From positions 1,426,001 through 1,490,000 of the forward strand of contig NZ_JAMLFW010000002.1 in NCBI RefSeq assembly GCF_024256385.1: a DNA stretch of 64,000 nt, read 5' to 3'. Under the pieces are notes generated by a model. The model made no database searches. It was not told the origin of the DNA and was given only the letters and a program-made list of their open reading frames with translations. The DNA is from Anatilimnocola floriformis. GTDB taxonomy: Bacteria; Planctomycetota; Planctomycetia; Pirellulales; Pirellulaceae. The stretch's first letter is position 1. Each line of letters starts with the position of its first letter. Below are positions 33,125 to 36,336 of this stretch, piece by piece. Both the position numbers and the translations under genes were made by a program.

Positions 33125-34159
33125 ATGTTGATCGGCCTGACTTATGACTTGCGGAGCGAGTATCTCGCAGCCGGGCTGAGTGATGAAGAGACAGCCGAGT
33201 TCGATCGCGAATCGACGGTCGCTGCCATCGAAGGCGCATTGCAATCGCTCGGACATCAAACCGAACGGATTGGCCACGCCCGACAGTTGATTGCTGCGTT
33301 GCAAGCGGGCCAGCGCTGGGACTTGGTCTTCAATATCGCGGAAGGTCTTTCGGGGATCGCACGCGAAGCGCAAGTGCCGGCGATCCTCGATGTCTATGGC
33401 GTGCCGTATACCTTTTCCGATCCGCTGGTTCTCGCGCTCACGCTGCACAAGGGGCTGACGAAGACAGTGGTGCGACCCGCCGGCGTGCCGACGGCGCCGT
33501 TTGCGGTAATCGAGGAATTAGCGGATCTGCAAAACCTGGAGCTGCCGTTTCCGCTGTTTGCCAAACCGATTGCCGAAGGGACCGGCAAGGGCGTGACGCC
33601 CGCTTCGAAAGTGAGCGACGCGGCGCAGTTGCGGTCGACCTGCGATCAGCTGCTGAAGCAATTTCAACAGCCGGTGCTCGTCGAAACGTTTCTGCCGGGC
33701 CGCGAATTCACCATCGGCATGATCGGCACCGACGATGCTGCGTATGCGCTTGGCACGTTGGAAATCGTGCTCCTCGCGTCGGCCGAATCCGAAGTCTATT
33801 CGTACGTGAACAAGGAAGAGTGCGAGTCGCGCGTCGAGTATCGCCTGGTCCGCGCGAGCGACGATCCGCTGGTGAAGCAAGCCGAAGAAGTCGCGCTGCG
33901 GGCCTGGCGAGTGCTCGGCTGTCGCGACGGTGGCCGCATCGACATTCGCTGCGATGCCGCTGGCGTTCCTTGTTTTCTGGAAGTGAATCCGCTGGCCGGC
34001 ATACATCCGGAGCACTCCGATCTGCCGATTCTGGCGACGAAGCTGGGGATTGCTTACGGCGACCTGATCGGCCGGATTATTCGGTCGGCAGAACAACGCA
34101 TCGCTGCCACGCCGCGATCGCTGGCGCAGAAGTTTGATGCAGCCGTGAGGAAGAGTTGA
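33125..34159 (+). CDS. ATP-grasp ligase, D-Ala-D-Ala-ligase-like
   Basis: The ATG at 33125 opens 344 residues of the D-alanine-D-alanine ligase type: VFNIAEGLSGIAREAQVP, GVPYTFSDPLVLALTLHKGL, FAKPIAEGTGKGVTP (ATP-binding Lys and loop), and the metal motif CFLEVNPLAGIHPEHSDLP. The loop sequence differs from the usual EGSSxGV of true D-Ala ligases, so the acceptor may not be D-Ala. The TGA overlaps the ATG of the second ATP-grasp gene. The surroundings hold no cell-wall gene, which also argues for a specialised ligase. Confidence 0.88.
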   Translation: MLIGLTYDLRSEYLAAGLSDEETAEFDRESTVAAIEGALQSLGHQTERIGHARQLIAALQAGQRWDLVFNIAEGLSGIAREAQVPAILDVYGVPYTFSDPLVLALTLHKGLTKTVVRPAGVPTAPFAVIEELADLQNLELPFPLFAKPIAEGTGKGVTPASKVSDAAQLRSTCDQLLKQFQQPVLVETFLPGREFTIGMIGTDDAAYALGTLEIVLLASAESEVYSYVNKEECESRVEYRLVRASDDPLVKQAEEVALRAWRVLGCRDGGRIDIRCDAAGVPCFLEVNPLAGIHPEHSDLPILATKLGIAYGDLIGRIIRSAEQRIAATPRSLAQKFDAAVRKS

Positions 34160-35673
34160 TGCCGCGCGTGTTGATCGTTCACAACGCAGTGGCTGCCGAC
34201 GCATCCGCCGCCGAGCGCGATGTGCTCGCGCAAGTTGCCGTCGTGCAGCAAGCCTGCCGCGAGCACGGCTATGCGTGCGAGTCGTTCGCCTGCACCAGCG
34301 ATCTGCAGCCGCTCATCGAGCGCGTTACCACCACTCGGCCTGCCGTTGTTTTCAATCTCGTCGAAGCCCTCGCCGGCCGCGATCAACTGGCTTGGTTGAT
34401 TCCGGCGCTGCTCGAAACCTTGCACATCCCATGCACCGGCACGCCAGCGGTGCCGCTGAACCTGAGCAACGACAAACTGCGCACGAAGCAAAAACTGCAG
34501 CTCGCGGGACTGCCGACGCCGGCCTGGTTCACGGCGGAATCGCTCGCTGATTCGAAATCAGCCAACCAATTCGTGCCTGGTCAATACATTTTGAAAGCCA
34601 TCGGCGAACATGCTTCGCTGGGTCTCGACGACAGCGCGGTAGTGCAAGTTGATTCCGCAACAGCGCTGCAGGAACAACTCCAAAAACAAACAGCCCGCCT
34701 TGGCAAAGCATGCTTTGCCGAACAGTTCATCGCTGGCCGTGAGTTCAATATTTCTGTGCTCGCCAGCGGCGCACTTCCCGAAGTGTTGCCGCCAGCCGAG
34801 ATCGACTTCAGCGATTTTCCTGCTGGTAAACCGCGGATCGTTGGCCAGGCGGCTAAGTGGGATGAAGGAACCTTCGAATTCGATCACACGCCGCGGAAGT
34901 TCGACTTTTCTGCGAATGATGCGCCATTGCTCGAACGGCTCCGTTCGTTGTCGCGCTCTTGCTGGCAGGTGCTGGAGCTCGCTGGTTGGGCTCGCGTTGA
35001 TTTTCGTGTCGACGAGCAAAATCAGCCGTGGATTCTCGAGGTTAACACCAACTGCTGTCTCTCGCCCGATGCTGGTTTCGCAGCCGCTGTCGAGCGCGGT
35101 GGCTACACGCTGTCGATCGCGGTCGAGCGGATCATCGCCGCCGTCCTCGCACCGAGCTCATCTCGGCCAGCGACAACATCGCCAACCAAAGCCAACAAAG
35201 TTGAGCTGCGCACCGATCCCAGCGCCGACGACGAAGCTCATGTTCGCGATATCGTCGACTCGACCGGTCTTTTTCGGCCGAACGAAGTCGACGTCGCCGC
35301 CGAGCTCGTTCGCGTGCGAATGCGCGATGGCCTGGCGAGTGGATATGAGTTTGTTTTCGCCGAGCAAAATGGCGAGGTTCTCGGTTATGCCTGCTACGGC
35401 CTCAATACAGTGACGCTCGCAAGTTACGACTTGTACTGGATTGCGGTGCGGCCGAACCTGCAGGGGCAGGGAATTGGTCGGCAACTGTTGGCCGAAGTCG
35501 AGCAGCGAGTGGCCTCGGCGAGTGGCAAGCAGATCTACATCGAGACTTCGCACCGGGCCGATTATGCGGCTACGCGGGCCTTTTATGAACGGTGCGGTTA
35601 TGCGCTCGAAGGAGTCCTCCGCGATTACTACGCACCGGGCGATGACCGCGCCATTTACGTACGTCGCTGGTGA
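34159..35673 (+). CDS. ATP-grasp ligase fused to GNAT acetyltransferase
   Basis: A 504-residue fusion. Residues 1-335 are an ATP-grasp unit (VVFNLVEALAGRD, IPCTGTPAVPLNLSNDKLRTK, metal motif WILEVNTNCCLSPDAGF). After a Ser/Thr/Pro linker (about 335-350), residues 350-504 form a GNAT N-acetyltransferase with the acetyl-CoA loop VRPNLQGQGIGRQLLAEVE and the ending IYVRRW. The ligase part resembles its neighbour but is clearly diverged. The combination suggests that a peptide-like or amide product is made and N-acetylated, possibly by the pair acting in turn. The product is unknown. A TTG at 34156 is an alternative start one codon upstream. Confidence 0.88.
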   Translation: MPRVLIVHNAVAADASAAERDVLAQVAVVQQACREHGYACESFACTSDLQPLIERVTTTRPAVVFNLVEALAGRDQLAWLIPALLETLHIPCTGTPAVPLNLSNDKLRTKQKLQLAGLPTPAWFTAESLADSKSANQFVPGQYILKAIGEHASLGLDDSAVVQVDSATALQEQLQKQTARLGKACFAEQFIAGREFNISVLASGALPEVLPPAEIDFSDFPAGKPRIVGQAAKWDEGTFEFDHTPRKFDFSANDAPLLERLRSLSRSCWQVLELAGWARVDFRVDEQNQPWILEVNTNCCLSPDAGFAAAVERGGYTLSIAVERIIAAVLAPSSSRPATTSPTKANKVELRTDPSADDEAHVRDIVDSTGLFRPNEVDVAAELVRVRMRDGLASGYEFVFAEQNGEVLGYACYGLNTVTLASYDLYWIAVRPNLQGQGIGRQLLAEVEQRVASASGKQIYIETSHRADYAATRAFYERCGYALEGVLRDYYAPGDDRAIYVRRW

Positions 35674-35859: not shown

Positions 35860-36336
35860 ATGCCGCTCGGTTGGGGCAAACAATTTCAGGGGCAAGCTGA
35901 AGTGAACGAGAAACATACGATTTTGCATATTGATGACGACCCAGCCATTCTGCGGCTGGTCGCTCAGCGATTGGGTGACGAAGGGTATGAGGTGATTAGC
36001 TGCGGCGATCCAGATGCGATCGAGTCGGTGTTGCACGCGAGCAACGCCCGAGTCTGTCTGCTCGATATCGCCATGCCGCACGCCGATGGTTTGGAGCTGC
36101 TGAAAGAGATCAAGCGTTATGACGGCGGCGTGCAGGTGATCATGTTGACCGGCCTGGTGAGCATGAACTCGGTGCTCGACTCGCTGCGCAATGGCGCTGA
36201 GGCGTTGCACTTCAAACCGATCTTGGACTTTGAACCGCTGCTCGAAATTCTCGCCGATTCGTTCCGCAAGACCGAACGCTGGCGGAAAACCCTGGAAGAA
36301 CTGCGGCAACGTCGGGCGCAAACGGCGCTAGCGTAA
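35860..36336 (+). CDS. Single-domain response regulator
   Basis: The protein is 158 residues long with one receiver domain: acid pocket Asp25-Asp27 (HIDDDP), phosphoacceptor Asp69 (LLDIAMP), Thr97 (MLTG) and Lys119 (HFKPI). After residue 130 there is a short helical, Arg/Gln-rich tail and no DNA-binding domain, so it acts through another protein. No histidine kinase is adjacent. Start uncertain: ATG at 35860, or GTG at 35902 with an AGGGG site upstream, which would give a protein beginning close to the receiver domain. Confidence 0.9.
   Translation: MPLGWGKQFQGQAEVNEKHTILHIDDDPAILRLVAQRLGDEGYEVISCGDPDAIESVLHASNARVCLLDIAMPHADGLELLKEIKRYDGGVQVIMLTGLVSMNSVLDSLRNGAEALHFKPILDFEPLLEILADSFRKTERWRKTLEELRQRRAQTALA

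Follow-up and report, generated by a model that had tools for sequence, protein, structure and literature searches.

NAGGN synthetase of rhizobia and pseudomonads, in which a GNAT acetyltransferase is fused to an ATP-grasp domain, makes an N-acetylated dipeptide osmolyte, and in the beta-lysylation of EF-P beta-lysine is known to be attached to a protein. The name 'MXAN_4097-like amidoligase', in use for ligases that resemble the D-alanine-D-alanine ligase (Ddl), reportedly and probably stems from Iyer et al. 2009, who may already have described part of the operon treated below. In PMC5987646, a 'D-Ala-D-Ala ligase operon' with a 'MXAN_4097-like amidoligase' is reported for a lichen Nostoc and a modification of peptidoglycan is suggested. 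N-acetyl-beta-lysine, in turn, is a recognised compatible solute (PMC3543383). Finally, PDB structure 2r7h (DDE_3044, Desulfovibrio) is labelled 'putative D-alanine N-acetyltransferase'; searches for DDE_3044 and its neighbour genes found no literature. In the open literature we came across no paper joining ATP-grasp ligases with a lysine 2,3-aminomutase in the manner reported here, as queries for ATP-grasp together with aminomutase returned only unrelated papers and, with beta-lysine added, none. We regard the prior art for this gene cassette as partial.

In a window of 64,000 nucleotides from Anatilimnocola floriformis, two genes, further called A and B, encode predicted Ddl-fold ATP-grasp amidoligases. 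Gene A (positions 33125 to 34159, forward strand; ATG at 33125, TGA at 34157-34159) encodes 344 amino acids and gene B (34159 to 35673, forward strand; ATG at 34159) 504 amino acids, with stop and start overlapping in the TGATG read from the sequence at 34157 to 34161. The ligase part of B (34159 to 35151, approximately residues 1-331) is followed by a GNAT acetyltransferase domain of the 2r7h family (35191 to 35670, approximately residues 345-504) that contains the acetyl-CoA motif QGQGIG. A domain search found PF07478 in both ligases (93.9 bits in A and 53.5 bits in B, cut-off 24) and a GNAT match at approximately residues 397-482 of B. The AlphaFold models have a mean pLDDT of 93.3 for A and a pLDDT of 88.5 for B, with a low-confidence linker at residues 332-344, and structural comparison of these predicted models revealed the complete three-domain Ddl ATP-grasp fold in A and, by Foldseek, likewise in B. 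D-Ala-D-Ala ligases are the best structural matches of both over the whole ligase length (for A, 8evz with VIA Z 32.8 and an rmsd of 2.6 over 293 residues), and the GNAT tail of B matches 2r7h both in structure (47% identity, rmsd 1.1 Å) and in sequence (E 1e-41). These results bear out a preliminary description of this DNA, which had reported an overlapping Ddl-like pair, an acetyltransferase at the C-terminus of the second enzyme and an altered omega/ATP loop in the first, reading EGTGKGV at the position of EGSSxGV in Ddl. The A-B pair is no chance reading, since it is conserved as a gene unit across many genomes.

The same description rightly noted that cell-wall genes are lacking nearby, which holds for the neighbours scanned. 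The sulfatase/cytochrome operon that it gave as context is incidental: a functional tie to the upstream sulfatase, DUF1592 and DUF1552 genes was considered and rejected, because a locus from the same genus (L026) has DUF1559-type and other genes there instead. At the 3' side of B lies a response-regulator receiver gene (window 35860-36336), and a similar gene is also found downstream of B in L026.

Scanning 84,980 species genomes with A yielded at least 578 A-like loci, of which the best 80, with 58-67% identity to A, are the basis of the gene-order counts. Their recurrent gene order is KamA (lysine 2,3-aminomutase)-(CxxCxxCC protein)-A-B-(GNAT-deacetylase)-GNAT. KamA is located upstream of A on the same strand in 74 of these 80 loci, at a median gap of 36 bases, while B follows A in 66 and a 2r7h-type GNAT is present in 54; some of the 26 loci with no GNAT are cut by contig ends. 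The CxxCxxCC (PF03692) gene stands between KamA and A in several loci, and in some, one protein combines a GNAT at its N-terminus with a deacetylase domain whose closest match is acetylpolyamine amidohydrolase. The GNAT is a separate gene in most relatives, again matching 2r7h (E 3e-45), and is fused to B in five further loci (L060, L078, L090, L091 and L104). Beyond these parts, no neighbour is constant among the best 80 of the more than 578 loci. The GNAT family on its own is not diagnostic, as GNAT matches on Nostoc, Deinococcus and Aquisphaera plasmids have neither a ligase nor KamA near them.

The gene pair, for which the preliminary description had proposed a search in relatives, is found in planctomycetes as well as in other phyla, where orthologues of A have 59-67% identity, and in relatives such as L027, L028, L030, L031 and L036 KamA lies just 5' of A-B. 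Going by their record titles, the loci come from Planctomycetota, Desulfobacterota (among them several isolates), Acidobacteriota, Gammaproteobacteria, Alphaproteobacteria, WOR-3, Fibrobacter, Bacteroidales and Sumerlaeota; this breadth is a lower bound, because the best 80 of more than 578 loci are biased to close relatives of A, and claims for any single phylum are soft, because many records are MAGs.

All four cassette parts (KamA, A, B and GNAT) are present in the genome studied here (G000), with KamA (contig C2, 1889609-1890718) not adjacent to A. It forms a pair with a CxxCxxCC gene (C2:1,889,397-1,891,317, corresponding to L056:8397-10317) approximately 430 kb from A-B, and the same-genus genome G001 has an identical split layout and a KamA of 94% identity. 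Among 195 planctomycete genomes, scored at E <= 1e-80 for A and E <= 1e-90 for KamA, both genes occur together in 30, A only in 2, KamA only in 7 and neither in 156. KamA is hence present in 30 of 32 genomes with A compared to 7 of 163 without it (Fisher p 2.6e-26, a value inflated by shared ancestry), and in one of the two A-only genomes (G061) a KamA fragment adjoins A at a contig edge. That G000, G001, G123 and G136 keep both A and KamA although these are unlinked argues for a function rather than mere hitch-hiking; in G123 and G136, no GNAT was seen near A-B. On contig C1, an EpmA-like gene (seen by eye) lies close to a second KamA-like gene (L051:10503-13988), which is probably EpmB, the two then being the EF-P beta-lysylation pair.

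Other Ddl-like genes were encountered as well. Distant Ddl-like ligases that adjoin a lysine 2,3-aminomutase occur on plasmids of Bradyrhizobium and Thioflavicoccus (L025:3937-8963 and L023:4467-9948), accompanied by a gamma-glutamyltransferase and a 7TM protein or by diaminopropionate genes, and we counted this second family in favour of the KamA-ligase link. In planctomycetes, KamA was absent from the vicinity of the other Ddl-like genes that we inspected. One different Ddl-like ATP-grasp clade (~343 aa), found without KamA nearby in several members of the family (L034:6915-9181, L037:8122-10313, L042:7030-9167 and L045:7099-9188) and directly 3' of a conserved protein of 355-413 aa, possibly a peptidase, is a second, separate ligase system.

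In our preferred reading, which we consider reasonably probable, A and B serve as the ligase pair of a conserved cassette that makes an acetylated beta-lysine amide or peptide by means of KamA, the ligases and the GNAT. KamA would convert L-lysine into beta-lysine, which we infer to be a substrate of the ligases. A and B, using ATP to form an acyl phosphate as in Ddl, would then couple one or two further amino acids or amines with beta-lysine or with a derivative of it, making two amide bonds or alternative ones, and the GNAT would acetylate a free amine, so that the product would be a small amide or peptide of N-acetylated beta-lysine. In the many relatives where an acetylpolyamine-amidohydrolase-like domain is fused to a second GNAT, the likely task of this protein is to trim or recycle the acetylated product, and in such deacetylase-bearing cassettes acetylation may be reversible or protective; this genome lacks the fusion, and just one HDAC-like gene, plain and unlinked (35% identity), was found in it. 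Against our preferred reading stand the unlinked KamA of this genome, the genomes with just one of A and KamA, the loci with no GNAT and the narrowly missed TIGR03820 cut-off described below. By analogy with N-acetyl-beta-lysine or NAGGN, one could guess at a role as compatible solute. More tentatively, the products might constitute an uncharacterised class of metabolites, N-acetylated beta-lysine amides or peptides made in many phyla by two Ddl-derived ligases acting after a lysine 2,3-aminomutase, with turnover by a deacetylase in many of them. The preliminary description had proposed a small amide or peptide made by two ligases and N-acetylated in the same putative complex. Its core, two non-cell-wall ligases with an acetyltransferase, stands because of the gene order, the several B-GNAT fusions, the changed substrate residues and the true ddl found alongside elsewhere; KamA, the CxxCxxCC protein and the GNAT-deacetylase had been overlooked.

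Alternatively, the cassette could modify a polymer: a protein, a cell-surface polymer or a peptidoglycan stem would receive (acetyl-)beta-lysine or a short peptide. EF-P beta-lysylation offers a precedent, and EpmA/EpmB-like genes are also present in this genome. Modification of peptidoglycan peptides is moreover what PMC5987646 proposes for the related Nostoc ligase operon. We nevertheless find polymer modification unlikely, as the Ddl fold works on free amino acids, the GNAT/deacetylase pair resembles small-molecule chemistry, and the cassette, in the best 80 of the more than 578 loci, has no recurrent gene for a glycosyltransferase, sortase, transporter or exported protein. The 2r7h-type GNAT could also replace AblB, since a lysine 2,3-aminomutase is present and AblB (TIGR03827) has no match in this genome, so that both would form a route to N-epsilon-acetyl-beta-lysine, N-acetyl-beta-lysine being a known solute (PMC3543383). 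This we judge improbable, given that next to KamA it is A that is constant and the GNAT that varies, and that the GNAT is fused to a ligase and not to KamA.

Our preferred reading further depends on the substrate of KamA. The KamA of this genome strongly matches the lysine 2,3-aminomutase 2a5h (E 7e-142) and retains both aspartates that contact the lysine amine. It also scores higher as a lysine mutase than as a glutamate or arginine mutase. Its 500 bits against TIGR03820 just miss the cut-off of 525, and for that reason the substrate is not certain; this near miss would fit a homologue that uses a substrate other than lysine, with a product devoid of beta-lysine, an option to which we give little credence in view of the 2a5h match, the kept aspartates and the lower scores of the other mutase models.

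To compare substrate residues, 88 A, 72 B and 15 usable canonical Ddl sequences were aligned (canonical row L147, read in a wrong frame, was left out), with E. coli DdlB numbering and residue roles that we assigned by motif and took from general knowledge of the enzyme. The equivalents of the ATP/Mg residues K97, K144, E187, K215, R255, D257, E270 and N272 are kept in both A and B. At the D-Ala recognition/catalytic positions, E15 has become D in both, H63 has become E in all A and B, A has T for S150 and E for Y216 where B has A and W, respectively, and S281-L282 reads S-D in A and A-G in B (L282 replaced by D and G, respectively). These replacements, of which the EGTGKGV loop of A forms part, are lineage-specific and near-uniform across the 88 A and 72 B sequences. 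The acidic residues that A has gained (E at 63, E at 216 and D at 282) would fit a positively charged substrate, for example beta-lysine. In a phylogenetic tree, B (support 0.94) and canonical Ddl (1.0) each form a single clade, while the A clade (0.61) holds 25 of 28 A rows; the remaining three are distant relatives at order level. Against TIGR01205, A scores 116.6 and B 80.2 bits, both far under the curated cut-off of 245.65.

A whole-genome model search found no other ddl in this genome, a situation that the preliminary description had taken to point to ordinary cell-wall ligases. That conclusion fails: the lack of a second ddl is not telling, because mraY and murG have no match in model searches of this genome either and because most family members are without ddl, with or without A-B. 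With the NCBIfam models for ddl, mraY and murG, nothing exceeds the cut-off here and in nearly all family members, and murF model scores are below cut-off in this genome. Co-occurrence with an ordinary ddl, also raised in that description, was found in 16 of 19 cassette genomes retrieved via the A scan (mostly other phyla), which have a separate ddl above cut-off; among the remaining three, one has a ddl that scores 245.0, right at the cut-off of 245.65, another has a split ddl and the third lacks it. Rhodopirellula baltica belongs to the same family as this genome. That A and/or B supply D-Ala-D-Ala for peptidoglycan is very improbable, despite their Ddl fold, the genome having no other ddl and the cryptic wall that may exist given the peptidoglycan reported for Rhodopirellula baltica (PMC5147048), when set against the low scores, the D-Ala residues replaced in all orthologues, the missing mraY and murG, the many family members with neither ddl nor A-B and the separate ddl of most cassette genomes. 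Judged by their sequences, A and B are not cell-wall ligases.

Hundreds of genomes carry A-B-type genes, and family models and plasmid annotations call such ligases 'D-alanine--D-alanine ligase', a label that the beta-lysine reading would correct. It would also warn against inferring a planctomycete cell wall from A-B-type ligases, and would give context to the orphan structure 2r7h. A testable prediction follows from it as well, namely a new small molecule in planctomycetes and sulfate reducers.

Compared with the known systems, the tail of B and the separate cassette GNAT belong to the same family as 2r7h, whereas that structure was solved alone and its function is putative. With the 'MXAN_4097-like amidoligases' the cassette shares a Ddl-like amidoligase in an operon, and LAM stands in the abbreviation list of PMC5987646, but the accessible part of that paper leaves the product unnamed. 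As in NAGGN synthetase, an acetyltransferase is fused to an ATP-grasp ligase; the cassette differs by its two Ddl-like ligases, its C-terminal GNAT and its KamA, and neither a NAGGN-type model among the 25 families listed for B nor an asparagine-synthetase-type partner among the annotated neighbours of A-B was seen. The AblA/AblB pathway to N-epsilon-acetyl-beta-lysine likewise combines a lysine 2,3-aminomutase with a GNAT, but here the GNAT belongs to the 2r7h type, no AblB is present and two ATP-grasp ligases come in addition. With Ddl (TIGR01205), A and B have in common the whole fold, the predicted ATP-grasp chemistry and the ATP/Mg residues, while their D-Ala residues are replaced, their scores lie far below the family cut-off and, untied to peptidoglycan genes, they have KamA and the GNAT as partners.
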